Below, one piece after another: positions 1 to 39,963 of a stretch of 64,000 nucleotides of DNA. Origin of the DNA: Denitrovibrio acetiphilus DSM 12809 (lineage in GTDB: Bacteria; Chrysiogenota; Deferribacteres; Deferribacterales; Geovibrionaceae). Position 1 is the stretch's first letter. Every line of letters begins with the position of its first letter. The stretch spans positions 682,001-746,000 of the forward strand of contig NC_013943.1 of NCBI RefSeq assembly GCF_000025725.1. The letters run 5' to 3'. The position numbers were made by a program, and so were the translations under genes. The notes under the pieces are model-generated. The model was not told the DNA's origin and made no database searches. It saw only the letters and a program-made list of their open reading frames with translations.

Positions 1-157
1 CTGTAATTGTCTTTATGTGTTACGGATTGTGAAGACCGCAATGATTAGGTGCATTGCAAACTACAGTATTTTCGGTTTGGTTTAATTGTTTACATACAAG
101 CTCCGTAGCTTATACCTGAACCGAATACGACTTATCAGTCAAAATATGGAGGTTTAT

Positions 158-1585
158 ATGTTCAAAAGGATGATCTTTTTATCCTGCGCCTTTTTGACGT
201 TTATGCTGATGCATGTCAGCAGTGCGTCAGCGGAAAACATGGTTACTCCAGACTTATGGTCTTATCATGTTAATGCGGGCAAAATCAGTCAGGCAACAGA
301 AGGACTGAGCATAGGGGAGACAAGTCTGTATTTAACTCTGACTACTAGATATCGCTATAGTTCAAATGATTATGCGAATGACAGTGACATTTATCAGTAT
401 CTCAAGACAAATTTTGATGAGGTAAGAGTTGGTACAGGAACAATCTCAGGCAAGCTGTATTTTCGTGTAGCTGAGGATCTTGATTCTGATGACAATCAGG
501 ACTGGTCAGATTCCTCTTACTATTTTTATCGTGATGCACTCGATAAAGAGCTTCAGGAAAATGATCTTGCACCGAGGTTATATTACGGAAACCTTGTTTT
601 CAGCGACTTCTTGGAAGGTACTAAGTTAGTGCTTGGTCGTCAGTATGTGGACAACCTGAATAATTTCCACATAGATGGCGGTGCTGCAAGCTATAGCTAC
701 GGTGAGAAGCTTGATGTCTATATTTATGGGGGTATGACAGTAAGTTATTTTTATGAGAATGACGATGACTACCTTTATGGTGGAGGTATCACTGCCAAGC
801 CATTTGAGAACACATCAATACAGGTCGAAGGTAACAAGCTAGAAGTTGAAGACATGGGTGATGATATGCTGTCTGCAAAGATATCCCAGCAGCTTCCATT
901 TGGTTATGCGTACGTTAAATACGATCAGATCAATGATGCTGATCTTTTCGAAGCTGCTGGTAATTTTCGCATAGAAAAAACACGCACATCATTAAGGTTA
1001 AAATACTCCGGTCAGTATAACAAGATAGACGTTAGTGATTCTTCATATGTAGTTAATCCGTTTACCTACTCACTTATGGATAGTGAAAAATTCAGTAAAT
1101 ATAAGATTAATATCAACCAGCAAATCATTAATATGCTGTCTTTGGATTTAGGCGGAGAGTTTAAGCAGATAGACGGTGATCTAAACCGTTATAACCGCGA
1201 ATATAACAAATATACGGTAGCAGTAAATATTGATGAACTATTCCAAGGAAATTTTATAAGAATTTCTGCCGAAATGATGGACTTTGATGACTATTACAGC
1301 ACAGATGAGGAAAAAGTCCGCTTTGGTTTTCAGATGTCACAAAGGGTCTCTGAGAAGATAGATGTCTGGACGGGCATAGATCATCAGAGTTTTGTTTATG
1401 ACTATGAAGATGATGAGTATAAAGAGTCTGTAACGGTGTATTACATAGGAACTGAGTGGAGACCTCTGGGGTTTCTGTCCTGCAGTCTTGATCTTTCAGC
1501 AGAAGATACTGAAATGTACGAGGATTTATCCGACGATCTCAACACTAACTATACAGCAGAAGCTCACTTGTCTTTAATGTTTTAG
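158..1585 (+). CDS. Outer-membrane beta-barrel protein (porin-like)
   Basis: Predicted exported barrel of 475 residues. The start at 158 is chosen because AGGAGG-like sequence (GGAGG at 148-152) precedes it; upstream in-frame codons lack a ribosome site. A signal peptide ends near ASAEN. The mature part alternates Tyr/Phe/Val with Asp/Glu/Ser, as in antiparallel strands, and ends in Leu-Met-Phe, the terminal aromatic typical of outer-membrane barrels. It sits 8 bases before a multiheme cytochrome and ahead of a molybdoenzyme, so by analogy with MtrB/DmsF it may hold an electron conduit. I see no direct sequence motif proving MtrB homology, and a generic porin is possible. Confidence 0.75.
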   Translation: MFKRMIFLSCAFLTFMLMHVSSASAENMVTPDLWSYHVNAGKISQATEGLSIGETSLYLTLTTRYRYSSNDYANDSDIYQYLKTNFDEVRVGTGTISGKLYFRVAEDLDSDDNQDWSDSSYYFYRDALDKELQENDLAPRLYYGNLVFSDFLEGTKLVLGRQYVDNLNNFHIDGGAASYSYGEKLDVYIYGGMTVSYFYENDDDYLYGGGITAKPFENTSIQVEGNKLEVEDMGDDMLSAKISQQLPFGYAYVKYDQINDADLFEAAGNFRIEKTRTSLRLKYSGQYNKIDVSDSSYVVNPFTYSLMDSEKFSKYKININQQIINMLSLDLGGEFKQIDGDLNRYNREYNKYTVAVNIDELFQGNFIRISAEMMDFDDYYSTDEEKVRFGFQMSQRVSEKIDVWTGIDHQSFVYDYEDDEYKESVTVYYIGTEWRPLGFLSCSLDLSAEDTEMYEDLSDDLNTNYTAEAHLSLMF

Positions 1586-1593
1586 GAGGAGTA

Positions 1594-2055
1594 ATGTTTA
1601 AAAAACGAATTCATACCATAATCGCAATTTTGTGCATAATGTTTGTTTCTTTTGCTGTTTCCTATGCCGTTGAAACCAGTAAACCTGATTCTCATGGAGT
1701 GAACTGGATACAAGAGCATGGTGATGCCAGTACATTTAATAACAAGGAATGCATGGACTGCCACACAGATAAGTCATCCTGCATCCAGTGTCATGAAGAG
1801 GCTGCACCTAGAAATCATAATGCGTCCTGGACGCGTAGAGGTCATGGGCTGGAGGCCAAATGGGATAGAGAATCCTGCTCAACATGTCACAAGGAAGATT
1901 CGTGTATTGAGTGTCACACAAGCACTCCTCCGTCAGACCACAGGTACGGATGGAGAGAACCAACAAATGCACATTGTGGGAACTGCCATTATCCGATTCA
2001 GGAGACTAGGTGTTATACCTGCCATAAGAGAGCTCATGCTCCTAATGAATATTGA
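1594..2055 (+). CDS. Small hexaheme c-type cytochrome
   Basis: Periplasmic electron carrier of 153 residues with an N-terminal signal peptide (cleavage after about residue 25, near SYAVE). Six CXXCH haem-binding motifs are visible: CMDCH, CIQCH, CSTCH, CIECH, CGNCH and CYTCH. Several extra histidines could be distal ligands. A strong AGGAGG site precedes the ATG. It lies between the barrel gene and the molybdoenzyme, so its likely role is electron transfer between an inner-membrane quinol donor or barrel conduit and the reductase. It is much shorter than decahaem MtrA/DmsE proteins, so it is not a simple orthologue. Confidence 0.92.
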   Translation: MFKKRIHTIIAILCIMFVSFAVSYAVETSKPDSHGVNWIQEHGDASTFNNKECMDCHTDKSSCIQCHEEAAPRNHNASWTRRGHGLEAKWDRESCSTCHKEDSCIECHTSTPPSDHRYGWREPTNAHCGNCHYPIQETRCYTCHKRAHAPNEY

Positions 2056-2069
2056 TTAAGAGGTATATA

Positions 2070-5009
2070 ATGAAAACAAAAAAGAAAAATTATCTGACAG
2101 AAAACAAAATAAGCAGAAGGGATTTTCTTAAGTGGACATCTGCTCTTAGTGCAACTGCTGTCGCTAATGGTTGCGGTGGCGGAAGTGGACCAGAGGACTA
2201 TACTGATGATCTATTAGTCCCACAAGAAGAATTTGTTATGGACAGAGAACTTAAAGAAGTTATGGGCACTCACCCTCACAACTGTGGTGGGAGATGTCCT
2301 TTTAAATTCTCTGTAAAAGGGCATGGTACTCCACAGGCAAAAATAGCTAAACTAACAGCTGCAGGTGACGTTGCCAGAGAGAATTCACTGGAAGCAGATG
2401 AGTCTACATCATTCGTCCAGACAAGGGCCTGTGTCAGAGGTTATGCTCAGATTAAAAGAACATATTCCCCTGACAGACTGAAATATCCGCTTGTCCAGAC
2501 AAAAGAACGAGGCGATGTTACAGGTTTTAAGAGAGTCAGCTGGGATGAGGCTCTTGATGCAGTCGCTGATAAAATCGCTGAAGTTTATTCAAGATTTAGC
2601 AGTGGTGAACTGCCGTATATTCCCATGGTTGCAGGTCCTCCGAATGGATTACATAACCGTATGATGTTTGCAGGTATGCCATTTATGGGATTTGCCGAGG
2701 GGGCAGGTTCTGCTTTATCGAAGTATCTCGGACCTACAATACTTCCTACAGGCGCACCCTCATTTGAAAACATGCTTTTTGCATCTATAGGATCAGTCGG
2801 GCTGCTTCCAGGGCTAGCTGGCGGAAACTCAGTGCATAATTATAAAAATTCAGATTTTATCATACAGTGGGGAGCAGATCCTGCTGTGAAAGAACCAAAT
2901 AAAACGTTCTTTCTGACCAAAGCAAAAGAAGCTGGTGTACCTATAGTTACTGTTGATGCTCAATACACTGACACTGCTTCTATTCTTTCTACAGGTTTTC
3001 CTGAGTACAATATACCTCAGTTTATTCAGGTTAGACCACAGACTGATGCTGCACTTTCTGTTGCGATGGCTTATATAATTTACAACAGGGATTGGCATGA
3101 CGATACATTTATAAAAGATAATTGTTTTGGGTTTTATCCGACACAAGGGGCTCCTGTAGATAGTGATGGGAATCCTTTTACAGTCGTTGATCCACCTAAA
3201 CATCCTGGATTTGTTAATTCAAAGCTTGACTTTTCATTTCAGACACAACTTACTCCAGATCAGCACCCTTTTGCAGATCCTGCGCTTGCCGGTCAAGATG
3301 TCCATGTCCCTGCTGGGCTGTCATTTGTTGAATATCTGGACGGGTTAGGAGTTGAGAAAGCTGCTGAGTTTGGTCTTGTTGACAAGGAAGATGCTGTTGT
3401 TACATGGGCATCCCAGTTGTCAGGTGTAGCAAAGGAAACAATAGTGAACTTTGCGGACGCATTTGCAAACGCTGGAGATGTGTTTCTTGAAAATGGGAAT
3501 AACGGTGGACAAAAAACAAATAACGGCATGCATAATGTCTGGATGATGATATGTCTGGCTGCGATGTGCGGACATACTGTAAAACAAGGCGGTAACCTTG
3601 GTGTTAACTCGTCGGATGGCGACTCTAACCCCGTGGGTTTCCCTGGTGGTTTAACTTACCCTGAGCTTGGCAGTGGTACTACTTATCCGTTTATTGCAGT
3701 GGATGCAAATAAGTTTGTAGACCTTGTTGTTACTGGCCGTGATGGAAGAACAGAAGATCAGTTTTATGAAGATACGAAATCAATTTACGGTGTCGATCTT
3801 GGTTCACCTGCAACAGCTAAACTTGAAGTTGATATGGTTTTAGGATCCTACCATATTACAAACTCATTCAATACATGTCCGAATACAAATAAGGCTGTGA
3901 ATATTTTCACCCAGAAAAATGGTAGCGACTATAAAATCAAGCATTATGTTATTTATGAACAGAACATGACTCCTACAGCAGCTTATGCCGATATCATTTT
4001 GCCTGCGTGTTCGCATCATGAAAAACCATTTTTTACTAGTGGTCAGGCTACATACTTTCAGAATAAACTAATTGAACCTATGTATGATACTAAATCGGAT
4101 GTTGATATCGATATTTTGCTTGCTGAAAAACTCAATGCCAGAGGCATAAGTGTTTCATATAGCAGAAACGGCAAAACTGATGAAGAACTTTGTGCAGAAG
4201 CATGGGATACAGCAACTGTATCAGATATTGATAAGCCTACTTTTGCAGAAGTACAAGAGCAAGGCATCGTTCAGAAGGAAGTCAGTGGTACCGTTCCAAA
4301 TCCTATGACCGGTCTTATGGGGTATCTCCCTTACACTACTGAAACGGGCAAGATTCAATTTTTCTCGCCGTTTTATTATTACAGGGATGGTTGTGACTTA
4401 GCAACTCAGACTGAAAAGTCTAGAGTGACATCAAGGGCGATGTATATTGAGCCTTATGAAGGTTACGACAAAATCATGAAGGGCGAAAACGTCGGTGTCA
4501 AAGGGAAAGAATATTCATTACAATTCACAACAAAGCATGCGAGGAATAGAGTTCATACCGTTTATGACAATGTTTCCGTGATACGTGATCAGTTTGATTA
4601 TCCAAAACGTGCACTCATGAGTCCTGCAGATGCTTCTAAAAGAGGCATAAAAGATGGCGACATGGTTTATGTCTATAATGATTGGGGCTGTTTAAAGGTC
4701 GGAGTAGGTATTTCACCAACAATAAGAGAGGGTGTTGTTAGTCTTCCGCATGGTGTTTGGTATAGAAAAGGAAGTGAAACATATGAGGCTTGGTATGATA
4801 TCGATCTTGGTGATGCGGTAGATAGTACTGTGGTTAGTGAAACAACTTACTATAAGCACATAGTTAATGTTGATATTGGTGGGTGTGAAAATACTTTAAC
4901 TCACGATAAAGACTTTGGAAGCCCTAAAGACCCGTTATGCGGACAGGTTGGCGACAACCATTTTAACGGAAATCTTTGTGAAGTTAGTAAAAATCATCCA
5001 GATAGTTAG
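2070..5009 (+). CDS. DMSO-reductase-family molybdopterin oxidoreductase, catalytic subunit (Tat, lipoprotein-like)
   Basis: Catalytic subunit of 979 residues binding a bis-MGD cofactor; substrate unknown. The start at 2070 follows AAGAGGT; in-frame codons from 2052 overlap the previous stop. A Tat signal (SRRDFLK, residues 15-21) runs into a lipobox-like Ala-Asn-Gly-Cys with Cys35, suggesting a membrane-anchored Tat lipoprotein. The proximal cluster motif is His68-x3-Cys72-x3-Cys76 with Cys121 later; DmsA has Cys in the first place, while NarG/SerA/DdhA-type enzymes have His. The segment RACVRG...SPDRLKYPL is DmsA-like. By rough alignment to DmsA, Ser in GAPSFEN would be the Mo ligand (inference). 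The C-terminal molydopterin-dinucleotide-binding domain is present, and the ferredoxin subunit follows after 20 bases. Confidence 0.93.
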   Translation: MKTKKKNYLTENKISRRDFLKWTSALSATAVANGCGGGSGPEDYTDDLLVPQEEFVMDRELKEVMGTHPHNCGGRCPFKFSVKGHGTPQAKIAKLTAAGDVARENSLEADESTSFVQTRACVRGYAQIKRTYSPDRLKYPLVQTKERGDVTGFKRVSWDEALDAVADKIAEVYSRFSSGELPYIPMVAGPPNGLHNRMMFAGMPFMGFAEGAGSALSKYLGPTILPTGAPSFENMLFASIGSVGLLPGLAGGNSVHNYKNSDFIIQWGADPAVKEPNKTFFLTKAKEAGVPIVTVDAQYTDTASILSTGFPEYNIPQFIQVRPQTDAALSVAMAYIIYNRDWHDDTFIKDNCFGFYPTQGAPVDSDGNPFTVVDPPKHPGFVNSKLDFSFQTQLTPDQHPFADPALAGQDVHVPAGLSFVEYLDGLGVEKAAEFGLVDKEDAVVTWASQLSGVAKETIVNFADAFANAGDVFLENGNNGGQKTNNGMHNVWMMICLAAMCGHTVKQGGNLGVNSSDGDSNPVGFPGGLTYPELGSGTTYPFIAVDANKFVDLVVTGRDGRTEDQFYEDTKSIYGVDLGSPATAKLEVDMVLGSYHITNSFNTCPNTNKAVNIFTQKNGSDYKIKHYVIYEQNMTPTAAYADIILPACSHHEKPFFTSGQATYFQNKLIEPMYDTKSDVDIDILLAEKLNARGISVSYSRNGKTDEELCAEAWDTATVSDIDKPTFAEVQEQGIVQKEVSGTVPNPMTGLMGYLPYTTETGKIQFFSPFYYYRDGCDLATQTEKSRVTSRAMYIEPYEGYDKIMKGENVGVKGKEYSLQFTTKHARNRVHTVYDNVSVIRDQFDYPKRALMSPADASKRGIKDGDMVYVYNDWGCLKVGVGISPTIREGVVSLPHGVWYRKGSETYEAWYDIDLGDAVDSTVVSETTYYKHIVNVDIGGCENTLTHDKDFGSPKDPLCGQVGDNHFNGNLCEVSKNHPDS

Positions 5010-5029
5010 TAAAGTTGTGGAGGTAAACA

Positions 5030-5776
5030 ATGAGTCAATGGGGATTTTATTTTGACCAAACAAGATGTGTTGGATGTAAGGCCTGCATGCTTGCTTGTAA
5101 AAACTGGAATGACGATAGACGTGGCGATTATAATATTAACTCAGATTCTATGAATCCAGATACAGACTGGTATAGTTCTGGAACGTATGTTGTTGATGTT
5201 AATGACATGGAAGACGTGTCTAACTATTTGAACAGCGCTGGCGAGACGAATTATGAGCAAAACAGAAAGTACTATATGAAGGAAGACTGGAGAAGGGTTA
5301 ATGCTAATGAAAGAGCTTATCCTTATGCGTTGAAACATATTTCTCTTGCCTGTAATCACTGCACAAATCCAGCATGTGTTGAGGCTTGTCCAATGGGTAT
5401 CATATACAAAGAAGAAGAATATGGCCTTGTTCTTGTAAATAATGAGACATGTATCTCGTGCGGTAAGTGTAAAGAAGCATGTCCCTGGGATGCTCCACAA
5501 TTTTATGCACCTGATTTTAGCCAGTATCAACTAGATGATACCACTAGACCAAAAATGACTAAATGTACACTATGTTTAGACAGGATTCAGGAAGGACTTA
5601 AGCCTGCATGCGTAGCTGCCTGTCTTAACAGGGCCTTAGACGCTGGTCCGATTGATGAGATCAGAGCAAAATGGACTAATTTTGGTAAAGATGTTGTAGA
5701 ATATACGGCAATGTCAAGTGAAGACTTTGCAAGTAGCAGTGGTTTAGAGCCGAATATTATTTTTGTTAAGAAGTAA
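5030..5776 (+). CDS. Four-cluster ferredoxin subunit of the molybdoenzyme (DmsB-like)
   Basis: Electron-transfer subunit of 248 residues with four cysteine groups: CVGCKACMLACK near residue 13, CNHCTNPACVEACP, CISCGKCKEACPW and CTLCLDR...CVAAC. All sixteen ligand positions appear filled, so four [4Fe-4S] clusters are expected. It has no signal of its own, as usual for DmsB-type subunits carried out by the Tat signal of the partner. It starts after TGGAGGT, 20 bases from the catalytic gene. No DmsC-like membrane anchor follows, which leaves the quinol link to another protein, such as the cytochrome or polyferredoxin nearby. Confidence 0.92.
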   Translation: MSQWGFYFDQTRCVGCKACMLACKNWNDDRRGDYNINSDSMNPDTDWYSSGTYVVDVNDMEDVSNYLNSAGETNYEQNRKYYMKEDWRRVNANERAYPYALKHISLACNHCTNPACVEACPMGIIYKEEEYGLVLVNNETCISCGKCKEACPWDAPQFYAPDFSQYQLDDTTRPKMTKCTLCLDRIQEGLKPACVAACLNRALDAGPIDEIRAKWTNFGKDVVEYTAMSSEDFASSSGLEPNIIFVKK

Positions 5777-5784
5777 TTCTTACG

Positions 5785-5820
5785 AATACAGGCGGGAGAA
5801 AACCTCCTGCCTGTATTTTT
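5785..5820 (+). terminator. Rho-independent terminator after the barrel-cytochrome-reductase unit
   Basis: A long inverted repeat (ATACAGGC..GGAG / CTCC..GCCTGTAT with an AAAA loop) is followed by a run of T. It closes the first unit 8 bases after the ferredoxin gene. Confidence 0.85.
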
Positions 5821-5838
5821 CAAACTATAAGGAAACTG

Positions 5839-8181
5839 ATGAATACAACTTTGATAAATATGAATCAACTGGATTCAATACGTTCGACAAATACTATACC
5901 CATTCTTCAAGGATACATAGCTACTTATCTTAATAAACATGAACATGATACACAGATCATTGATGATTTACAAGATGCTCCACTTACTTTGGAAGATTTA
6001 AATAGGCATATGCAAGAGTTCCGACCTAAGCTGGTAGGATTCTCTGGTTATCACTACTTGATGGAACGAATACGTTTTTTTGCAAGATTCATAAAGGAGT
6101 ATTATCCTGAAACAAAGCTTATACTTGGTGGTCCACAGTCTCTTTTTCTTCCGGGGGATGGACTTAAAGATCTTCAGGACTTTGACATAATTTGCAACAA
6201 AGGTGAAGGTGAATTAACCACACTTAACATAGCTGAGTCACTGAAAAGTGGAGATAGTTTTTATAATATACCAGGGATTTCATTTAAGGATAATGATCAA
6301 ATCATTACTACCAACCGACCTGACTGTTTGCCTCAAGATCTAGATATCTACCCTTCCCCTTATGTTCAGGGTGTTATTGATTTAAGTATGAAAAAGACAG
6401 CGTGTATTTTTACATCCAGAGGATGTGAACATGTCTGTAATTTTTGTGTTACACCGTTGTTTAATAATATGAGGATTCGTTTTCATTCGGTGGATCATGT
6501 GTTGGAAGAAATGCAATATTTAGAATCAGCGGGTATGGATAGTTTATGGATAGGTGATCCGAACTTTACTGCATACAGAAGTCGAACAGTAGAGTTGATG
6601 GAACAGAAAATAAATAGAGGTATAAGAATACCTTTTTGGTGTCAAACTAGAGTTGATATGGTTGATAAAGACTTGTTGAAGTTGATGCAAAAAGCAGGTC
6701 TTCATTGTATAGGCTTTGGGCTTGAATCAGGAAGCGACAAGATACTTAATACTATGCATAAGGAAGTTTCTATCTCAAGATTCCATGAAATCGTTACCTA
6801 CGCGCAGTCGTTGGGGATAAATGTGGAACTGTTCTCTATGTATGGGCAACCTGGAGAAACCTATGAAGATGCAAGAAAAACAATCAGTATAGTTCAGAAG
6901 TACGATATACCTATTTATGCGAACTCGTGTGCACAGCAACTACAGCTTACATGTGGTTCTATGTACGGGAAGGATCCAGAGAAATTTGGCTTTAAGGTTA
7001 GTGACAAGTATATCCCGAGCTACCTTTCATTTTGGCATGAGTATGAAACCGATTGCTTAACACGTTTAGATCTAAGAAAAATTCAGGCTGCATGGGTTCT
7101 CTATAATAAAGAAACAGAGTTCAATATTGAAAATTGTATAAATATATTTCATACAGTTGATTATATATTAGAACATAAGGAAATGCTGAAAGAAGAAAAA
7201 CGTCTTTATGAGTACTGGCTGTACCTTGGGTCATTGCTTGAAGATAAAGAAACTATGATGCAGTGTATTAAAAATTTCAGAAAAAATATTTCTACTGATA
7301 AGAAAGAACTGACTAAACTACTTAAACATGCAGACATGTATTCTGTATCAGATACAGTACAAAACAACAGCCGTGTGATTATATTTTGTCAATACGAAGG
7401 GCAGTATATTCCTGAAAAACATTACTTAAAGCCGGGGCTCAATGACCTCAGATACAAAATTCAAAAAGGAACTTTGTTGGGAATGAAGGTGAATGAGTCT
7501 GTAAAGGTTACGTTAAGTGATGGTCAAGGCACGAACGTCATTATTTCCGTACTCAGAATATTTAATAAAGTTAAAATAAAAGATGTAAAGCAGCTTGATA
7601 AAAATCACTTATGGCATGATTATAATTTTATAAGTTATAAGGCTTTGGAGCAGTCGAGTAACGAACTTCTTTTATTTCTCACTCTGAAAAGCATCCCTTA
7701 TAGTCAATTTGCGGGGATTCCTCAAGTATTACTTAATCTAGTTTCTTATTATACCAAAATACATAAGTTTTCAGAAGTCGAAAAGTGTTATAGGGGCATG
7801 CTTCTAATTCCTCATGTTGCTTACAAAGTTGCTGAGACCTTTGGAGACATTATCTCCTATGCCGGCAAACATGAAGAGGCTATAGAATATTATAATAAAT
7901 CCGATGTGACAGAACACGTTTTAATAAAAAAAGCTTATTCATATGTAAAACTAAACAGGCATGAGGAAGCGTTTAACATATTGAAAAATATAAGTAAAAA
8001 AGAGGATATGCTGTATTGTGAGGTAATGCTTGAGTGTTTGCATAACCTCTCTGCTGATAACATAGACGAAATAAGAGCATTGAGTCATAAAGTTGTACAT
8101 ATGAAAGTTCAGAAAATACTTGAAAACAGCACATTAGCTGTAAATTTAAAAAGTAAGGTTGCTTCTAATGTTAGAGCATGA
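5839..8181 (+). CDS. Cobalamin-domain radical SAM protein with long C-terminal extension
   Basis: Enzyme of 780 residues. Residues 1-150 look like the B12-binding Rossmann domain of class B radical SAM enzymes (LILGGPQSLFLPGDG near 95-108). The cluster motif CEHVCNFC spans Cys196, Cys200 and Cys203, followed by a TIM-barrel-like domain with GFGLESGSDKIL. From about residue 430 the protein continues as a helical extension with TPR-like helices. Substrate is unknown: possibilities are methylation or another radical step on a cofactor, lipid or peptide. It is AT-rich and overlaps the next radical SAM gene, so the two are likely co-translated. Its position between two molybdoenzyme modules suggests a linked job, but that is inference. 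Confidence 0.85.
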   Translation: MNTTLINMNQLDSIRSTNTIPILQGYIATYLNKHEHDTQIIDDLQDAPLTLEDLNRHMQEFRPKLVGFSGYHYLMERIRFFARFIKEYYPETKLILGGPQSLFLPGDGLKDLQDFDIICNKGEGELTTLNIAESLKSGDSFYNIPGISFKDNDQIITTNRPDCLPQDLDIYPSPYVQGVIDLSMKKTACIFTSRGCEHVCNFCVTPLFNNMRIRFHSVDHVLEEMQYLESAGMDSLWIGDPNFTAYRSRTVELMEQKINRGIRIPFWCQTRVDMVDKDLLKLMQKAGLHCIGFGLESGSDKILNTMHKEVSISRFHEIVTYAQSLGINVELFSMYGQPGETYEDARKTISIVQKYDIPIYANSCAQQLQLTCGSMYGKDPEKFGFKVSDKYIPSYLSFWHEYETDCLTRLDLRKIQAAWVLYNKETEFNIENCINIFHTVDYILEHKEMLKEEKRLYEYWLYLGSLLEDKETMMQCIKNFRKNISTDKKELTKLLKHADMYSVSDTVQNNSRVIIFCQYEGQYIPEKHYLKPGLNDLRYKIQKGTLLGMKVNESVKVTLSDGQGTNVIISVLRIFNKVKIKDVKQLDKNHLWHDYNFISYKALEQSSNELLLFLTLKSIPYSQFAGIPQVLLNLVSYYTKIHKFSEVEKCYRGMLLIPHVAYKVAETFGDIISYAGKHEEAIEYYNKSDVTEHVLIKKAYSYVKLNRHEEAFNILKNISKKEDMLYCEVMLECLHNLSADNIDEIRALSHKVVHMKVQKILENSTLAVNLKSKVASNVRA

Positions 8182-9922
8182 TGTTGTTTTTCTGGTTTTA
8201 AAAGAAACATCCTCGTATTTCCACTCTGTTGAAGAAGATGCAGCAGCGGCTACTTTAGTTTACTATATGAAAGAAGCTGGTCTTCAAAATCTATCTACAT
8301 TCCCAGCGACAGATGAGGATAAATACTCAGGTACTATTTATAGTCAATTTATGACATATCTTGATAAGAATACAGCGCCTATATTTTGTATCTCATGCTG
8401 GACAAGTACTTATGCAATAGCTTCTGATTTTGCCGAAATGATTAGAGCTCGTTACCCACGATCATTGATTATTGCGGGAGGCGTACATTTCAATTCTTTA
8501 GGAGAAACAGAACATTCTCTGTATAAAGGGACATTTGATGTGGTCTTTAGAGGTGGTGGAGATAGTTTTTTAGAATTTATTAAGTTAAGTGTTGTTGAAA
8601 AAAAGTTGAAAATATACAAAGAAAAAGGTGAAATCAAAATATCGGGGGCTACTTTAGGGAAGGGGGCGTATTATTTAAAAAATAGAAAAATCCAAAATAC
8701 AGGAAGAGGAAGCTTTAATCGTCCTGTTGTGCCGTTACTCGGAGTAACTAATGACTGTATTGACACAAGGATTTTGCTGCACGACACATGTCCAAATGCG
8801 TGCGACTATTGTTTTATACAACCCTCAGGTATCAACTGTAACTATTGGGCTTCTCTTATAAAATGGGTAGGTGAATTTAGCGGTCAAGTAAAAAAAACGT
8901 ATAAAAAGGATGTTGTGCTTTCGTTGTCTGATAGCGCACCTTTCAATAAAAGTAACCGAAAGCGTACACTTGACTATTTAGATATGCAAAAAAAGAATGT
9001 AAGGTTTGACGGCATGAACGTTTTTGTTGACCCATCTGATTTAGATGAAGAGTTTTATCATATTGTTGAAGAGCATGACATAAACAACTTTTTTATAGGG
9101 CGAGATAGAATTATATCTGACAACTTTGTAGGTAGAAGGCTTAATGGATTGGAACGGTCTTCAGAGCAGCTTGATCAGGAGTTAGATTTGATTCTTAACT
9201 TTATGGCTTTTCTTAATACAAGGAAGAATAAACTTCAAAACGAAATATATATAGGTTACATCGTATCTCCATATGAAAGTGCAAAATATTCACGGAAACT
9301 AATAGACGAGCTTTCTGGTATTACGATGCATAATTCAAAATTAACAAACGTGAGAGTTCAATCAAATTTATTTATACTTAACCCATACCCAGGCACTAAA
9401 GTTGCACAAAAAGCTAAAGGTGAGTTTATTGCAATGAGGTATTTTTATCATCCATATCCTAATGTATGGGTAGGAAAAAATACTGTTAATATATATTTAG
9501 AAGTAATTCGGCTTATAGTTGCAAAGATGTTTTGCAATAATATAAACATCTCCTTTTATAAGCCTATTTTAGAAATGGCTCATTCCCTTCAGTTTCAAAC
9601 AGATTATAATTATAAACTTATAGATGATATAGAAGATGTGTCTTTACGAAGCTTTGCGTATAAGATAATTGAAGATATTTTCAAAATGGAACTAAGCAAA
9701 GAAAGAACTTTGGATGAGTATTTAGAAAATGTTAAATCAATCTATTATATAGGATGTATGGTGAGTTTAGTTATTAACAAACCAGAGTTATTAAAATACA
9801 AGAATTTGTATAGCAGTATAGTAAAAGAAGATAAGTCAGTCGCTTTTTTGATGAAGGATTTAAACTTATTAAAAGAATATGCCTTAGCAGGCAAAGCCCC
9901 AGTGTTGGATAAATACTTATAG
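8168..9922 (+). CDS. Second cobalamin-domain-like radical SAM protein
   Basis: Protein of 584 residues. The ATG at 8168 is preferred because AAGTAAGG lies 9 bases upstream; an earlier TTG at 8159 is too close to it. The N-terminal part has a B12-domain-like segment (IIAGGVHFNSLGETE near 101-115). The radical SAM motif is CPNACDYC at Cys208, Cys212 and Cys215. The C-terminal third is helical and not recognised. The gene overlaps the preceding radical SAM gene by 14 bases, so the pair probably act together. Substrate is unknown. Confidence 0.82.
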   Translation: MLEHDVVFLVLKETSSYFHSVEEDAAAATLVYYMKEAGLQNLSTFPATDEDKYSGTIYSQFMTYLDKNTAPIFCISCWTSTYAIASDFAEMIRARYPRSLIIAGGVHFNSLGETEHSLYKGTFDVVFRGGGDSFLEFIKLSVVEKKLKIYKEKGEIKISGATLGKGAYYLKNRKIQNTGRGSFNRPVVPLLGVTNDCIDTRILLHDTCPNACDYCFIQPSGINCNYWASLIKWVGEFSGQVKKTYKKDVVLSLSDSAPFNKSNRKRTLDYLDMQKKNVRFDGMNVFVDPSDLDEEFYHIVEEHDINNFFIGRDRIISDNFVGRRLNGLERSSEQLDQELDLILNFMAFLNTRKNKLQNEIYIGYIVSPYESAKYSRKLIDELSGITMHNSKLTNVRVQSNLFILNPYPGTKVAQKAKGEFIAMRYFYHPYPNVWVGKNTVNIYLEVIRLIVAKMFCNNINISFYKPILEMAHSLQFQTDYNYKLIDDIEDVSLRSFAYKIIEDIFKMELSKERTLDEYLENVKSIYYIGCMVSLVINKPELLKYKNLYSSIVKEDKSVAFLMKDLNLLKEYALAGKAPVLDKYL

Positions 9923-9959
9923 TGTTTATTTATATGATTAAAATTTAAGAGAGGTTATT

Positions 9960-10661
9960 ATGGAGATTATTGATTTACAAAATGCTACAGCACTAAGAAC
10001 TGTTCTTTATAGAAATCTAACAAGATGGTATTCGAAAGAAATTGACCATAAGTGTCTATTAGAGATGAATTCAACTCTTGCAATGTTTGCAGATTACAAC
10101 AAAGGTCGAAACGATAATATGCTCGAAAAGGGCATTGAAATAATTAAAAATTTCACTGGTAAGCATAGTGATTTGACACTCTTGGTTGATGAACTTGCAC
10201 TAAAGTACACGACTATCTTCTTAAATGTATCTCCTAATGGTGTAGTCAAACATGTTCATCCTTATGAGTCTGTTTATTTGTCTCCAAATAAACTTGTTAT
10301 GCAAGATCAAAGAGATGAGGTTTTGGAGTTTTATGCTGAACAGCAGATGGGAGTAGCAGATAATTTTAAAGAACCTGAGGATCACATTGCTATAGAGCTC
10401 GCATTCCTCCAAGAGCTTAACAAACGTATTTGTAAAGAATTAGCAAACAATAATATGGATGATGCTCTCGATAAGTTTGAGGTACATAGTAAATTTATGC
10501 AGCAACATTTACTCAAGTGGGTGCATTTATTAGGAAGAGATTTGATCGCATCAGATCCTAATGGATTTTACGCCGGCCTAGCCAATATAACAATTGGTTT
10601 TGTTAAGGAAGATTACATGTATGTTGAAGAGGTAATGGATTATATTAAGACATGCAATTAG
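9960..10661 (+). CDS. TorD/DmsD-family molybdoenzyme chaperone
   Basis: Cytoplasmic all-helical chaperone of 233 residues that should bind the Tat signal of a molybdoenzyme until cofactor is loaded. Family signs are the PYESVYL segment near residue 100 and the EPEDHIAIELAFL motif (ExxDHxxxEL). It starts after AGAGGT. It follows the two radical SAM genes and runs directly into a remnant of a molybdoenzyme gene, with only nine bases between the stop and the remnant's first start-like codon. Confidence 0.88.
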   Translation: MEIIDLQNATALRTVLYRNLTRWYSKEIDHKCLLEMNSTLAMFADYNKGRNDNMLEKGIEIIKNFTGKHSDLTLLVDELALKYTTIFLNVSPNGVVKHVHPYESVYLSPNKLVMQDQRDEVLEFYAEQQMGVADNFKEPEDHIAIELAFLQELNKRICKELANNNMDDALDKFEVHSKFMQQHLLKWVHLLGRDLIASDPNGFYAGLANITIGFVKEDYMYVEEVMDYIKTCN

Positions 10662-10670
10662 ATTCTACAC

Positions 10671-11549
10671 TTGTCTAATATGGGGAACACAGCAGATGAT
10701 TGGCGAAGAGAAGCTGTAGAACCACTACTCTCAGGATATTTCCCGGATACAACATATGATGAGTGGAAAGAACTCGGAACTGTATCAATGGATGAAAGTC
10801 ATGGTATTACAGTAAATGCTGAAATGGCAGCCTTTAGAGCAGACCCTGATAATAATCCTCTCCTTACACCCTCGGGTAAATTTGAGATATATAATCAGGC
10901 AATGGTGGAAGACTATGAAGCCAGAGGATATGTCAATATTGACGGACGTTTTACCCTGACGGGAAATCTGCACGATGGAAGTAATGCAGGGCGATTTGTT
11001 TACCCTATACCAATGGTTATTCCTATGATGGAAGGCTTATTCGCCGAAGGAGCAACAGACCCACATCCAGACCCTCTAGAAAGAGATGATGCAGGATATA
11101 CGTTAGGTTTAAACGGATGGCATATTTATTATCGTTCACACTCAACACATAATAATAACGCTTATATTAATGAAGTGTTTAAGAAAAACTCTAAAGGGCA
11201 ACCTGCTTTTCTTGATCCGAATAGAGAGACAGGTGAAGCATGGGATGATAATGTTTATGAGCCTGTAGTAATAAACCCTTATGATGCGGAAGCTAACGGT
11301 ATAACGGATGGAGACAGAGTAGTGCTGGAAAATTCCAGAGGGAGCATTTATGCCTCAGCTACAATTTCACAGAGAGTACGTAAAGGCTGGCTTGCAATAG
11401 GACAAGGCGGCTGGGCTAATGGAGATAATGCAAATGGAACTCCTGACATAGGCGGCGCCATCAATGTATTAACAAAACTTTTGCCTACCCGTATATGCCA
11501 GGGTATGACTCTCGGTGCAGACACAAGAGTAAAAATAAGAAAAGCCTGA
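10671..11549 (+). pseudogene. C-terminal remnant of a second molybdopterin oxidoreductase catalytic subunit
   Basis: The open frame encodes about 292 residues matching only the last third of a DMSO-reductase-family subunit: LTPSGKFEIYNQ, a domain junction with NGWHIYYRSHSTHNN, and the dinucleotide-binding domain with EANGITDGDRVVLENSRG. The Tat signal, cluster-binding motif and Mo-binding centre are absent, so it cannot be a working enzyme alone. The frame is the same as the preceding chaperone, separated only by a TAG stop at 10659-10661. This suggests a deletion fused the chaperone region to the 3' end of the old gene. The ferredoxin partner gene downstream is intact. Confidence 0.85.
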
Positions 11550-11561
11550 TAGGAGTTTAAA

Positions 11562-12173
11562 ATGAGTTATGCATTTTACTATGACCAGAATAGATGTATG
11601 GGATGCAACACTTGTGTTGTTTCATGTAAAGACTGGAACAGTGTTAACCCCGGACCGGCAAGGTGGAGAAATCTCTCCACCAGAGAAAACGGCACATTTC
11701 CGAATGTAGCGATATACAACCTTGTGCTGTCCTGTAACCATTGCGAGAATCCCGCATGTACAGCAGCATGCCCTGTAGGTGCTATTTACAAGAGGGAAGA
11801 GGACGGCATAGTTATCGTGAACAGAGACCTCTGTCAGAACATTAAGGCGTGTGCCGTAGCCTGTCCTTTCGGTGCTCCGAATTTCGGAGATGATGATTCC
11901 GAGCCGATGCCGGAGGCCACATGGGCTGTCGACCACCCTATGCAGAAATGTACTTTCTGCTGGGATAGATGGGAGGAAGGCAAAAAACCATCCTGTGTGA
12001 GCTCCTGCCCGAACAGGGCGCTAGACGCAGGCACAGTGGAGGAGATAGAGGCAAAGTACCCATTGGCGGTTAAAACTGTTGTCGGATATCCGGATTCGAG
12101 TAAGGATTCCCAAGGGAATTCACTACCGAACGGCGATACTCTGCCATGTATATATTTTAACCCCAAGTCGTGA
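11562..12173 (+). CDS. Ferredoxin subunit of a second molybdoenzyme (NarH-like cluster pattern)
   Basis: Iron-sulfur protein of 203 residues with cysteine groups CMGCNTCVVSCK, CNHCENPACTAACP, CQNIKACAVACP and CTFCWDR...CVSSCP. In the third group the second cysteine is Ile (C-x5-C-x3-CP). This is the position where NarH-type subunits have Trp and hold a [3Fe-4S] cluster, so a 3Fe cluster is expected here. It starts after TAGGAGT, 12 bases from the truncated catalytic gene. It has higher GC than the radical SAM pair upstream. Without a full catalytic partner nearby its use is uncertain. Confidence 0.88.
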   Translation: MSYAFYYDQNRCMGCNTCVVSCKDWNSVNPGPARWRNLSTRENGTFPNVAIYNLVLSCNHCENPACTAACPVGAIYKREEDGIVIVNRDLCQNIKACAVACPFGAPNFGDDDSEPMPEATWAVDHPMQKCTFCWDRWEEGKKPSCVSSCPNRALDAGTVEEIEAKYPLAVKTVVGYPDSSKDSQGNSLPNGDTLPCIYFNPKS

Positions 12174-12181
12174 CATAGACG

Positions 12182-12214
12182 TGCCGGAGTCCGTTAAAAG
12201 CGGGCTCCGGCATT
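12182..12214 (+). terminator. Hairpin after the second ferredoxin subunit
   Basis: GCCGGAGTCCG and CGGGCTCCGGC form an 11-bp stem with one G-T pair around TTAAAAG, followed by ATTTT. It could end transcription or attenuate read-through into the next radical SAM gene, whose start lies 11 bases on. Confidence 0.65.
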
Positions 12215-12224
12215 TTAGGTGCTT

Positions 12225-13451
12225 ATGAACTATATAGATTTTCTCAGTCACCATACAACACGAAAGTCCGCTTTATTGAATATCCTGAACAGTTTCTCTC
12301 TGCCTGTAGGTGAAGATGAAAATACAGAATACAGCGGACTGATAAGCATATTAAATGAAAATCCGCTGGTGAAGATATGCAATGCAGGCAAAAGCATAAG
12401 GTACAACTATGTTTCAGAAGCCTGCGAACTTTGCCATAAAGGTGACAGGTCACACACCTTCATCACATCTCTGGAATGCTCCAGATACTGCTATTACTGT
12501 GCGAATCTGAATCAGGAAGAATCTGTTTTCCTACCTCTTAAAGAACAGTATGATGCCCGCGAAGACAGGCAGATGCTCCAGTCAGTAGGCATCACAGGCG
12601 GAGAACCTTTCCTTTTCAAAAAAGAAGTAACGGGTTTCGTGGGCTATGTGAAAGAGGATAACCCTGACTGCTACATTCGCATATATACATGCGGAGACTA
12701 TTTAGACAGCACACTTCTGCAGGAACTGCAGATGCTGGGGCTGGATGAGATAAGGATTTCGGTTAAGCCGGACGATGCTGTCAGTACTGCACTGGATAAG
12801 ATATCGCTTTGTGCTGAATATATCCCGCATGTTGTTGTGGAGATGCCTGTTTTTCCGGATGAAGAGGAATATATGCAAAACTTGCTTATAAGTTTGCAGG
12901 ATACCGGTGCAGCCGGCATTAATCTGCTGGAATTCCTCTTTCCTCTTAATAACGAGCAGGTATTTGCAGAGAAGGGCTACAGACTGAAGCATACGCCTTA
13001 TCATGTGATCTATAACTATGATTATCCGGGCGGTCTGCCAATTGCCGGAAGTGAGCTTTTGGCTTTGCGCCTTATTGAATTTGCCGCAGGAGAAAAACTC
13101 AACATAGGTGTTCACTACTGCGCATTGGAAAACAAATTCACCTCTCAGATATATTTTCAAAACAGTCGTATAAAACTTAGAAACTGGGAAATCATGGATC
13201 CTAATGATTTTTTTATTAAAACTCTGCGAGTGAAAATAGATGGCACAGATATAATCTCGGAGCTGGGTCTTAAAGAGAACGATTATTTTAAAGGATCAGA
13301 TTATGTAGATATACATCCTATGTTTCGAGAAAAGACTGGAGCGATTGAGATGACGTTAGTATATAGTGTTGCTGAAAATATTGAAAATAAAACTGTAATC
13401 AGAGAAGTGCACTATGGGGCACTGAAAGGAGTTTCACATGAACTGCAATAA
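12225..13451 (+). CDS. Radical SAM protein with CSRYCYYC motif
   Basis: Protein of 408 residues from the ATG at 12225 (AGG five bases upstream). The radical SAM motif is Cys85-x3-Cys89-x2-Cys92, with GITGGEPFL (122-130) as the SAM-binding GGEP. Two more cysteines (Cys67, Cys70) precede it as C-x2-C and could hold metal or another cluster. No cobalamin domain is seen. The gene overlaps the following TorD gene by 14 bases, so it is probably part of molybdoenzyme maturation or modification. The exact reaction is not recognisable. Confidence 0.82.
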   Translation: MNYIDFLSHHTTRKSALLNILNSFSLPVGEDENTEYSGLISILNENPLVKICNAGKSIRYNYVSEACELCHKGDRSHTFITSLECSRYCYYCANLNQEESVFLPLKEQYDAREDRQMLQSVGITGGEPFLFKKEVTGFVGYVKEDNPDCYIRIYTCGDYLDSTLLQELQMLGLDEIRISVKPDDAVSTALDKISLCAEYIPHVVVEMPVFPDEEEYMQNLLISLQDTGAAGINLLEFLFPLNNEQVFAEKGYRLKHTPYHVIYNYDYPGGLPIAGSELLALRLIEFAAGEKLNIGVHYCALENKFTSQIYFQNSRIKLRNWEIMDPNDFFIKTLRVKIDGTDIISELGLKENDYFKGSDYVDIHPMFREKTGAIEMTLVYSVAENIENKTVIREVHYGALKGVSHELQ

Positions 13452-14148
13452 AGATAAAAATATCATAAGTGGTGATGACGTCAAACCTGTTCTACAGGCC
13501 AGAAGCATTTTTTATAAACTGTTTTCTGACTTCTTCTACGATATTCTGGAAGACAATTCTTTGTTAGATCATTTGTTTGCTAGTTTGAATACGCTGGAGC
13601 AAATGCTGGCAATGAGGTGTGATGACCCTGTGCTTGAAGACGCCTTTCAAGTAATACGTGAAGAATTGAGTAACAGAAATGAGATTGAACATAAGCTTGC
13701 CAGGGAATATACTTCTTCCTTTTTATTGGGAGGGTACTCTGTAAATCTCAGTGCTTCTCCATACTTTTCTCCAACAGGAACAATGTATCAGGAAGAGCGT
13801 AGTGAAGTGAAAAATATTTATATTTCTTCAGGGCTAAAACTGAATACAAATAAAAAGATCCCTGAAGATCATCTGGCTTTAGAACTGTATTACATGCACT
13901 ATATGGCGAATAGGGATATGAGTGTGATTGATGATAAATCTAAATTAATTAATTCCTTTAGGAGCCAGGCTGATTTTATGGAGAATAACGTTTATCCGTT
14001 AGTGTATGCAGTTACAAAAGCCTCTGAAAAGAAAAGAAATACAGGGTTTTATATGAGCTTGCTTATAATACTGAAAGAATTTGTGAAGCAGGATACTGAA
14101 ACTGTTAACTGTCTTATCTCAGATGAGGAGGAGCTATGTTTGGACTAG
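13438..14148 (+). CDS. TorD-family molybdoenzyme chaperone, second copy
   Basis: Helical chaperone of 236 residues. Family signs are YFSPTGTMYQEERSEV near residue 104 and KIPEDHLALELYYMH (ExDHxxxEL motif). It starts inside the end of the radical SAM gene, and its own last 13 bases overlap the tatA-like start. This tight packing implies translational coupling. It presumably serves the second, now truncated molybdoenzyme or the intact one upstream. Confidence 0.87.
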   Translation: MNCNKDKNIISGDDVKPVLQARSIFYKLFSDFFYDILEDNSLLDHLFASLNTLEQMLAMRCDDPVLEDAFQVIREELSNRNEIEHKLAREYTSSFLLGGYSVNLSASPYFSPTGTMYQEERSEVKNIYISSGLKLNTNKKIPEDHLALELYYMHYMANRDMSVIDDKSKLINSFRSQADFMENNVYPLVYAVTKASEKKRNTGFYMSLLIILKEFVKQDTETVNCLISDEEELCLD

Positions 14149-14285
14149 GGCACGCTGAATTATTGATAATAGCTTTGCTTTTATTTGTTCTGTTTGGTTA
14201 TAAAAAACTTCCGATGTTAGGAGAGAACCTTGCAAAGGCACTAAAGAGCTTTAAAACTGGTGTTATAGATACTGACGAGAAGTAA
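14136..14285 (+). CDS. tatA: TatA-like twin-arginine translocase subunit (49 residues)
   Basis: A very short gene read directly from the sequence. It begins MFGLGHAELLIIALLLFVLF, a single membrane helix with the Phe-Gly/Glu-Leu pattern of TatA. The hinge GYKKLPMLGENLAKALKSFK then gives the amphipathic helix with the Phe-Gly-x-Lys-Lys-Leu-Pro signature. The acidic tail is only nine residues. GAGGAG precedes the ATG, and the start lies inside the TorD gene. A TatA dedicated to a molybdoenzyme cluster would support export of the folded reductase. Confidence 0.88.
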   Translation: MFGLGHAELLIIALLLFVLFGYKKLPMLGENLAKALKSFKTGVIDTDEK

Positions 14286-14297
14286 GGTGATTAAGGT

Positions 14298-15290
14298 ATG
14301 ATTGGCATAAAAATCGATCCTGAAAAGTTACAATGTGGAATAACTGTCAGGCCCCAGAGTTGCGTGAGAATGTATTACAAAAATGCATCATGTAATTTAT
14401 GTGTGGAACTTTGCCCGGAAAATGCTGTGAAAGTAGGTATGCCTGGGACAAAAGTACTCGTTAACCCTTCAAAGTGCTCAAGTTGTGAGATATGTGTAGG
14501 TGCATGCCCTTACGGCGTTTTTACTGTTTCAGGTACTAATGACTATATTCGCTGTGTCAATTTGCTAGAGAGTACCTATGACCAGGGGCTCAAGCTCGCT
14601 TGTGGAAAAAGCGCAACTAAAGACGCTGTAAAGATTGAGTGCTTAGGATCCTTAAATAGTGTACTTCTTCTATTTCTCTTAACTTCAGGAGTTAAGAAAA
14701 TAGAGCTTGATATGAAACCGTGCGTTGATTGTGAAATTTCTGAATACATGCATAAAATCCTTAATAAAGAGCTTGAAATTACAAGAAATATGCTTAGGTC
14801 TGTAGCTGCAGGTTATAAAGAATATGTAATAGAAAATGCCATGCTCATAATGTTAGAAAACGATATATTTCAGAAAGCTCAGAAAACGGAAATTTCATGT
14901 AGTAGGCGTGGTTTCTTTAATCACATGAAGAAAAACGTATTAAAAAATATGTCAGCTATTACTGAGATAATTGAGTCAGCCCCAGTGGAGAGAGTTGTTA
15001 TTACTGACAAAAAACCTGTTAATAATAGAAAGCATATTGCAAATATAATTTATGATCGTCTGGTGTCATTAAATAAAAACATACCTATGGTTGCTGGGTT
15101 TCCAATTGGTAAGATATTCGTGAATAACACTGACTGTACTCAATGTCGAGTTTGCGAAAAACTATGTCCCACTGGATCAATATTAATAGATGATGGAGCT
15201 TTTAAACATAATGTCTATAAATGCATCGGATGTGGAGTCTGTGTTGATTTGTGTAGTCGTAACTGTATTAAGTTGCCACCAGAGAAGTAG
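14298..15290 (+). CDS. Polyferredoxin-like 4Fe-4S protein
   Basis: Soluble iron-sulfur protein of 330 residues. The N-terminal part has CNLCVELCP and CSSCEICVGACP; the C-terminal part has CTQCRVCEKLCP and CIGCGVCVDLCSRNC. About 200 residues separate the pairs; they hold scattered cysteines (CGK, CLG, CVDC) and no clear fold signature. An internal SCSRRGFF string resembles a Tat motif but lies mid-protein. It is the last gene of the respiratory cluster, after tatA, and probably passes electrons or assists cofactor assembly. Specific partner unknown. Confidence 0.8.
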   Translation: MIGIKIDPEKLQCGITVRPQSCVRMYYKNASCNLCVELCPENAVKVGMPGTKVLVNPSKCSSCEICVGACPYGVFTVSGTNDYIRCVNLLESTYDQGLKLACGKSATKDAVKIECLGSLNSVLLLFLLTSGVKKIELDMKPCVDCEISEYMHKILNKELEITRNMLRSVAAGYKEYVIENAMLIMLENDIFQKAQKTEISCSRRGFFNHMKKNVLKNMSAITEIIESAPVERVVITDKKPVNNRKHIANIIYDRLVSLNKNIPMVAGFPIGKIFVNNTDCTQCRVCEKLCPTGSILIDDGAFKHNVYKCIGCGVCVDLCSRNCIKLPPEK

Positions 15291-15402
15291 CAAATATGTG
15301 AGAACCTAACTATGTAATGGCATTAGAACAGGCAAGGCTACATTGTCAGCTAAATGGGCACTGATTTGGGCTCTCAGAAATTTGCGACGTTTATAAGGTT
15401 TT
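15291..15402. other. Short intergenic stretch before the IS256-family element
   Basis: No gene or terminator is clear. It holds AATTTGCGA at 15379-15387, which pairs with TCGCAAATT in the IS end, so a snap-back structure is possible. The 8-bp target copy AAGGTTTT is at 15395-15402. Confidence 0.4.
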
Positions 15403-37504: not shown

Positions 37505-37691
37505 TGATTTTGCAGTTCAATTGACCCCCCTGGCGGCAAATATTTGCAGCTGAATTGACCCCCCATATTTGCAATTCAATTGACCCCTCTGTGGTGTCAG
37601 CTTTTGTAAAAAGTTTTGTAAAAATCTCTCCTTTGTATAATGCCTCCATAGAAAATAACTATGGAGAAATTGAATGCGAAAGGAGTACCAC

Positions 37692-39233: not shown

Positions 39234-39963
39234 ACTGAAACAGACAGTAAAAAAACTAAGGCTGTCGGGAATACTGGCTACTTTACCGGAACGGATGGCT
39301 TATGCCAAACAGCAGCACCTGACATATGCAGAGTTTCTTGAGTTGGTAATGCAGGATGAAGTGGACAGGCGTCTTCATAACCAGGTGGATAATCAAATGA
39401 AAAAAGCTGGTATTAACCCCTTTGAGACACTGGAGAGATATGACTTCGACGCTCCGGTGCAGGTAGACAGAGAAATGATCAAAGGACTGTTCGGTCTGAA
39501 TTTTATTGAGGAAAAAGATAACGTGATGCTGTGCGGACCTGTCGGTGTTGGTAAAACATATCTGGCAAATGCATTGGCCCACGCTGCTGTGCGAAGAGGT
39601 AAAAAAGTCCTGATGGTCAGAGCAGAGAAACTTTTTAAAAGACTGCAGCAGTCCAGAGCTGACTACTCCTATGAGAAGGCTCTGCTTGGATTTATTACTC
39701 CCGATATGCTTATTATAGATGACTTCGGACTGAAGGCATTGAATGAACAACAGTCTACTGACTTCTATGAGATTGTTGTGGAAAGGTACGGGAGAGCATC
39801 TACTGTGATCACAAGCAACAGGGATACGGATGAATGGCTGGAACTATTCCATGACCCGATTCTCGCAAACTCGGCACTCGACAGGTTGGTGCATAATGCA
39901 TACAGAGTTGTCATTGAGGGTGAGAGCTATAGAAAAATTAAATCCAGAAAAAAGTTGATTTAA
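39217..39963 (+). CDS. istB: IS21-family ATPase IstB, copy C
   Basis: 248 residues. Walker A MLCGPVGVGKTYLANALAH and Walker B LIIDDFGLK with the arginine-rich end NSALDRLVHNAYRV. AAGGAGG precedes the start. It assists IstA in target selection. Confidence 0.95.
   Translation: MTLSNELKQTVKKLRLSGILATLPERMAYAKQQHLTYAEFLELVMQDEVDRRLHNQVDNQMKKAGINPFETLERYDFDAPVQVDREMIKGLFGLNFIEEKDNVMLCGPVGVGKTYLANALAHAAVRRGKKVLMVRAEKLFKRLQQSRADYSYEKALLGFITPDMLIIDDFGLKALNEQQSTDFYEIVVERYGRASTVITSNRDTDEWLELFHDPILANSALDRLVHNAYRVVIEGESYRKIKSRKKLI

Follow-up and report, generated by a model that had tools for sequence, protein, structure and literature searches.

Why should two overlapping genes for cobalamin-type radical S-adenosylmethionine (SAM) proteins lie within an operon for an exported molybdoenzyme? 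The question is raised by a 64,000-nucleotide stretch of Denitrovibrio acetiphilus DSM 12809 (bases 682001–746000 of NC_013943.1, the single contig of a 3,222,077-bp genome; hereafter the window), in which the genes P0001 (5839–8181) and P0002 (8168–9922) are preceded by those of the dimethyl sulfoxide (DMSO)-reductase-family molybdoenzyme DmsA1 (2052–5009) and its iron-sulfur subunit DmsB1 (5030–5776) and followed by that of a TorD-family chaperone, TorD1 (9960–10661), all on the forward strand; DmsB1 and TorD1 were recognized in library scans. We propose, at a probability of roughly 40%, that P0001 and P0002 are dedicated to the maturation of DmsA1 as a two-enzyme module of cobalamin-type radical SAM proteins, which would modify this molybdoenzyme in the cytoplasm before its export by the twin-arginine translocation (Tat) system. 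The proposal draws on the architectures of both proteins, their gene order and overlap, their co-occurrence with DmsA1 across two phyla, and the association of the P0001 family with tetratricopeptide repeat (TPR) and FKBP modules.

Architecture of P0001 and P0002

Both frames are open, that of P0001 encoding 780 amino acids and that of P0002 encoding 587 when read from a TTG at 8159. The likely start of P0002 is the ATG at 8168, which is preceded by AAGG nine bases upstream, and with this start the two frames overlap by 14 bp, not 23. P0001 comprises a B12-binding domain (Pfam, E = 2.6e-8), a radical SAM domain (E = 3e-20, both above cut-off), an eroded FKBP-like segment (residues about 495–600), and a TPR-like tail (about 600–760). 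Its cluster cysteines C196, C200, and C203 (CxxxCxxC) are kept in all 14 full-length rows aligned. Pfam returned weak TPR matches at residues 675–744, and the tail scanned alone matched TPR_8 at 23.9 bits, against a cut-off of 25.7. The modelled tail resembles TPR structures over roughly residues 592–760, with a Z of about 11–13 that is modest for helical repeats and a middling pLDDT (predicted local distance difference test), in line with the suggestion of an earlier sequence-only reading of this DNA that the tail is suited to protein binding.

P0002 is a more divergent member of the same class, for which Pfam recognized B12-binding alone, at 25.8 bits against a cut-off of 32.1. Its radical SAM assignment follows from the CxxxCxxC motif (C211/C215/C218, numbered from the TTG), which is invariant in eight of eight aligned rows, from a weak Radical_SAM match of the Geobacter ortholog (E = 0.007), and from the structural matches of its AlphaFold2 model (built with eight sequences; pLDDT 85.2, predicted template modelling score 0.88). 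The model aligns from its N-terminus with MgmA, CysS, TsrM, and OxsB. MgmA (Z 16.2; root mean square deviation 4.2 over 358 residues), CysS (16.0), and AprD4 (15.8) are tied as its nearest structures in the PDB, followed by TsrM (15.0) and OxsB (14.7). The comparison with class B radical SAM methylases that had been suggested thus returned cobalamin-type radical SAM proteins as best matches, without separating the methylases from AprD4. By the cluster motif together with the N-terminal cobalamin-binding domain, P0001 and P0002 are class B (cobalamin-type) radical SAM proteins. Both presumably bind cobalamin, the supply of which is plausible given that CobS is present in all five genomes checked, including the window's. 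Open frames, domains, and model agree with the sequence-only description of two overlapping cobalamin-type radical SAM proteins, and the pair of frames is not a chance arrangement, because intact full-length orthologs of both genes (46–69% identity) occur in three other genomes, one of them from another phylum.

Neither protein reaches the cut-off of any curated NCBIfam model, in keeping with the earlier statement that neither has a recognized substrate. The top match of P0001 is the PhpK/BcpD family of P-methyltransferases (TIGR04479, 136.3 bits against a cut-off of 600), but no phosphinate pathway is seen at the window. Among the better matches of the P0001 family are ApyD (NF050148, 109 of 750 bits) and the C-methyltransferases of ribosomally synthesized and post-translationally modified peptides (TIGR03975, 72 of 282), which are peptide-modifying class B enzymes; unlike these, the window pair has no precursor-peptide gene alongside. 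P0001 also matches MgmA, the methyl-coenzyme M reductase glutamine C-methyltransferase (TIGR04014, 107.7 bits against 360; PDB 9ccb), with P0002 unmatched. MgmA shares the cobalamin-type radical SAM fold with the P0002 model, has a large redox enzyme of anaerobic metabolism as its target, and is the closest functional precedent, as an analogy of working only: its host enzyme is unrelated to DmsA1, and with a solved chain of 417 residues it lacks the FKBP/TPR tail of P0001.

The fold relatives also include TokK, CysS, OxsB, and TsrM, which are enzymes of natural-product pathways, and the pair might by this likeness make a small diffusible product, such as a natural product or an electron shuttle. 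We regard this as very unlikely. The gaps flanking the pair (5777–5838, 62 bp; 9923–9959, 37 bp) leave no room for a precursor-peptide gene, and a natural-product operon at the window locus was ruled out, as it holds neither a precursor peptide nor any other biosynthetic gene. No natural-product cluster was recognized around the relatives inspected either.

Co-occurrence with DmsA1

DmsA1 resembles a Tat-exported lipoprotein by its N-terminus (RRDFLKW...ANGC), matches Pfam Molybdopterin (1e-23) and Molydop_binding (5e-21), and finds DMSO reductases as its best PDB matches. A serine stands at the aligned Mo-ligand position (GAPS in DmsA1) in all DmsA rows and is, by alignment, the likely Mo ligand of DmsA1. 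At E ≤ 1e-150, DmsA1 was found in three of 50 Deferribacterota genomes, namely the window's own (G000), G020, and G022, and, among 141 genomes of its order, in Geobacter sp. UBA4057 (G050), a metagenome-assembled genome (MAG) from another phylum. The copies of G020, G022, and the MAG are 88%, 79%, and 67% identical to that of the window, and the four form one clade with a support of 100/100. The Deferribacterota search was run at a threshold of 1e-70, at which seven further genomes gave weaker DmsA matches (best 4.4e-106), and the search of the order scored five DmsA candidates per genome, so that a copy may have been missed.

The pair is rare, and full-length P0001 (at least 50% identity) occurs together with full-length P0002 (at least 46%) in exactly these four genomes. 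At the thresholds used, no genome was found with DmsA1 and without the pair, and P0001, P0002, and DmsA1 are all absent from G018 and G019, which belong to the window's genus, and from G021, which belongs to the genus of G020 and G022. A draw of 395 genomes from the phylum of the MAG returned no further DmsA1, with two candidates scored per genome and a miss possible. P0001 of at least 60% identity is confined to three of the 50 Deferribacterota; in addition, G048 has a fragment at 45% and G049 a remote match at 27%. G048 probably carries the pair split by a contig break, as one contig runs out after the N-terminus of a P0001 homolog and another, which also bears DmsA-DmsB-DmsA-DmsB-TorD, has the C-terminus of P0002 at its edge; the DmsA copies of this genome fall outside the DmsA1 clade. 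Homologs of P0002 were detected in nine of the 50 Deferribacterota and in one of the 141 genomes of the MAG's order. When 84,980 species genomes, a set that may leave out the window's own and near ones, were scanned by pattern, only seven P0002 loci came back. No P0002 match was obtained in 72,556 plasmid records, and the plasmid matches of P0001 were partial (41–58% of the query) and below 30% identity among the best 15 of 134 records. Viral contigs gave pattern matches to P0001 but contained no relative.

The gene order is DmsB1-P0001-P0002-TorD in the window and G020 and DmsB1-P0001-TorD-P0002 in G022. In the Geobacter MAG it is TorD-x-P0001-P0002-TorD-ferredoxin-porin, with DmsA1 occupying a separate 3-kb contig. 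The frames of P0001 and P0002 overlap or abut in the window, G020, and Geobacter. The x gene of the MAG (L024, 1524–2435) encodes a cysteine-rich protein of 303 amino acids without a Pfam match; considered as a shared third component, it was rejected, being present only in its own genome among the 11 searched. The sequence-only reading had named the reductase itself as a possible substrate, and the linkage to a DMSO-reductase-family enzyme lends support to this idea.

Two residues set the DmsA1 clade apart. K488 (arginine elsewhere) and N515 (glycine elsewhere) distinguish four of four DmsA1 rows from 12 of 12 non-pair DmsA rows, a count that leaves out three DmsA2 rows. By their place in the alignment, both probably lie near cofactor-binding loops, and the arginine at position 488 aligns with the QR pair of DMSO reductase, which lines the active site (Arg326). 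These residues mark DmsA1 as unusual without identifying a modification site. An insertion around residues 194–216 of DmsA1, seen against the local paralogs, was also considered as the site and rejected, since a matching segment exists in ordinary DMSO reductases and the insertion is therefore not special. The replacement at 488 and 515 of residues constant elsewhere, probably close to the cofactor, could also be taken to mean that the pair modifies a cofactor or lipid used by the reductase, such as a quinone, the molybdopterin dinucleotide, or the lipid that anchors DmsA1. Small molecules or lipids are the targets of many class B radical SAM families, and HpnJ, BchE, and PhpK appear among the second-line NCBIfam matches of P0001. 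Such a target is unlikely in our view: these matches all lie far under cut-off, the altered residues might just as well mean that DmsA1 acts on a different substrate, and a TPR/FKBP tail and the TPR or YcaO-TPR partners described below are unexpected for small-molecule enzymes. The cofactor or lipid that the sequence-only reading had listed beside the reductase gained no evidence.

The wider P0001 family and the choice of substrate

Matches to P0001 at E ≤ 1e-60 were found in 32 of the 395 genomes of the MAG's phylum (the Desulfobacterota side), comprising the MAG itself, 10 genomes whose homologs are full-length (32–38% identity), and 21 whose matches are shorter or partial; the neighbourhoods of all 10 full-length loci and of 10 of the 21 shorter ones were inspected. 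The trigger-factor domain TIGR00115 was detected in the tail of each of the three Desulfobacterota full-length homologs scanned (2.6e-20, 8.5e-17, and 2.6e-16), with no match in the Geobacter ortholog of P0001 in the NCBIfam scan. Pfam FKBP_C was found in four of eight full-length homologs, and a profile of six trigger-factor-type segments retrieves solved trigger factors (best 1.1e-16). The FKBP-type peptidyl-prolyl isomerase domain of trigger factor is thus present in full-length relatives of P0001, where it is fused to a radical SAM core, and is eroded in the window clade.

Where the tail is missing, a TPR protein is encoded next door: in nine of the 10 shorter tail-less homologs inspected, the next gene is co-directional and encodes such a protein, and in the tenth it is a DUF3786 gene. 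In L106–L113 and L115, a stand-alone B12/radical SAM protein of about 430–480 amino acids is accompanied by a TPR protein of 445–595 amino acids, the N-terminal part of which has no listed Pfam domain. Five of the homologs are almost identical and form a subclade in which a YcaO-TPR fusion lies directly upstream of four (L100, L101, L103, and L104), the contig of the fifth ending there. The YcaO part of the one fusion tested matches Pfam YcaO at 2e-76 and has the McrA thioamidation family as its best NCBIfam match, and the neighbouring YcaO-TPR and B12/radical SAM-FKBP-TPR genes are a candidate two-step protein modification system, judged from domains and adjacency. A subclade of four homologs precedes an enoyl-CoA hydratase gene and an old-yellow-enzyme family gene (one pair tested).

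The recurrence of the radical SAM core with protein-binding modules, in one chain or in a neighbouring gene product, is our main reason to prefer a protein substrate. Tentatively, and with less than even confidence, we suggest that the P0001 family is a class of radical SAM proteins, not described before, that carry chaperone parts of their own or are encoded with a TPR partner and that would hold unfolded clients and modify them on carbon. On this reading, Deferribacterota and a Geobacter relative enlisted it together with P0002, and the two would be the first cobalamin-radical system to modify a molybdoenzyme. No description of a B12/radical SAM-FKBP-TPR family, or of such a pair with a molybdoenzyme, was found in the open-licence literature searched.

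The protein need not be DmsA1. The TPR/FKBP architecture implies a protein without naming which, the operon encodes several exported proteins, and distant relatives live where DmsA is absent, so that the target might instead be another product of this operon (DmsB1, the porin, or the hexaheme cytochrome) or of a gene located elsewhere. This seems unlikely, because DmsA operons that lack P0001 can also have DmsB, hexaheme, and porin genes of the same kind, whereas the pair tracks the DmsA1 clade.

TorD chaperones keep apo-molybdoenzymes from Tat export. If DmsA1 is the substrate, its apoprotein would be held in the cytoplasm by TorD and the FKBP-derived/TPR tail of P0001 while the radical SAM cores, possibly with a division of labour between the two enzymes, modify it, most likely by C-methylation at a single residue or a few residues close to the active site. 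DmsA1 would then receive the molybdenum bis(molybdopterin guanine dinucleotide) cofactor, pass through the Tat system, and join DmsB1 and the porin/hexaheme conduit. B12 radical SAM carbon-methylation of a catalytic protein, methyl-coenzyme M reductase, is established for MgmA, whose authors suggest that little time is left to the enzyme until folding buries the target glutamine (PMC11796369); an arginine methylase of the same reductase is described in a further report (PMC5943407). A protein-binding tail next to TorD fits such a folding-time problem, and we therefore propose that the pair acts on DmsA1 before export. A radical SAM core to which FKBP/TPR modules are fused suggests a route to a buried residue, in which the client is held before folding, and post-translational tuning would, if the proposal is true, extend to the molybdoenzymes, a large and geochemically important family.

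Several points weigh against DmsA1 as the substrate, an assignment that we infer. With a mean pLDDT of 48, the structural model of P0001 is poor and can be interpreted only for the radical SAM core and the TPR tail. The FKBP-like segment of the window clade gives no FKBP or trigger-factor profile match by itself, and hhalign links it to the intact homologs at E = 6e-4 with a probability of only 28%; it aligns with them in register across the whole protein, which speaks for positional homology only. AprD4, which shares the cobalamin-binding fold of the P0002 matches, does not methylate. None of the 10 full-length Desulfobacterota loci has a DmsA, DmsB, or TorD relative adjoining. At one of the loci in this set (L099), an open reading frame about 4.5 kb off gives a weak 26% match to DmsB, and the frame beyond it presumably resembles aldehyde:ferredoxin oxidoreductase, by its N-terminus. 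No DmsA-type enzyme is in view at the P0002 homologs of G037, G029, and G031. The sequence-only reading had taken homologs living mainly away from molybdoenzymes, in clear natural-product operons, as the counter-case. Its first half applies to these 10 distant P0001 relatives and to three of the eight other Deferribacterota P0002 homologs, which have no DmsA, DmsB, or TorD relative in view beside them, but not to the close orthologs (P0001 at least 50% identical), which occur only where DmsA1 does. Its second half has no example, as none of the distant relatives lies in a recognizable natural-product operon.

The remaining contrary points concern mobility. The DmsA1 and the P0002 (63%) nearest to those of the window come from G020, but the nearest P0001 (69%) comes from G022, whose P0002 is just 47% identical to that of the window; the component trees are incongruent in detail, which indicates that parts have been exchanged. 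The G022 cluster is flanked on both sides by copies of one IS3-like element, and together with the transposase-rich surroundings this means that co-transfer of one block could explain the co-occurrence with no enzyme-substrate tie, the pair being a passenger of a mobile respiratory island. Relatives living elsewhere would fit such hitch-hiking. We nevertheless hold it to be quite improbable, since across two phyla the two genes have stayed whole, next to each other, and in one direction, either between DmsB and TorD or beside TorD, with the overlapping or abutting frames noted above. Many transposase-like genes lie at 15456–53734 of the window, and the two proteins encoded at 37674–39963 are 100% identical to those at 11301–13590 of L023, which indicates recent activity of these elements.

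Neighbouring modules

Upstream of DmsA1 are the forward-strand genes of a porin-like outer-membrane protein (86–1585), which has no Pfam or NCBIfam match and homologs of which recur next to DmsA genes in relatives, and of a small secreted hexaheme c-type cytochrome (1594–2055; six CxxCH motifs). No membrane-anchor gene was seen in the operon of DmsA1, the porin, and the cytochrome, and no RNA element reached the gathering threshold in positions 1–16000. Modules of a porin-like protein and a small multiheme cytochrome are repeated beside different DmsA clades (window 1–5009, L011, L012, and L013) and, from their gene content, read as interchangeable outer-membrane wiring for several exported molybdoenzymes. 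The operon resembles the extracellular DMSO/iodate reductase system dmsEFAB of Shewanella in that genes for a c-type cytochrome and an outer-membrane protein accompany those of DmsAB. The small hexaheme cytochrome and the porin-like protein of the window are different ones, and dmsEFABGH, as described, includes no radical SAM gene (PMC11302344). Nitrate is given as the only electron acceptor reported to support growth of D. acetiphilus in the description of the organism (PMC3035293).

Downstream, the TorD chaperone following the pair, as the sequence-only reading had it, is succeeded by a second set of forward-strand genes. The pair therefore lies literally between molybdoenzyme modules as described, with the qualification that the downstream molybdoenzyme, DmsA2 (10671–11549), is a 5'-truncated remnant comprising only the C-terminal end. 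It is 67% identical to residues 679–959 of the intact G022 copy of 960 residues and thus lacks the first two thirds, the deletion falling just after TorD1, and its partner genes downstream look intact. These encode DmsB2 (11562–12173), the third radical SAM protein of the locus, P0010 (12219–13451), and a second TorD (TorD2, 13438–14148). They are followed by the gene of a multi-cluster ferredoxin-like protein (14298–15290), a possible electron donor; in G020 and Geobacter UBA4057, a homolog is encoded right after the TorD gene that accompanies the pair.

P0010 has a CxxxCxxC motif, lacks a B12 domain, and has HxsC as its best NCBIfam match, far under cut-off. Matches to it were found in 28 of the 50 Deferribacterota, and in the 19 neighbourhoods inspected, a TorD-like neighbour is seen 12 times and a DmsB2-like one nine times. 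P0010 fills the slot between DmsB2 and TorD2 as P0001 and P0002 do for DmsA1, and the second DmsA clade may thus have its own, different radical SAM partner.

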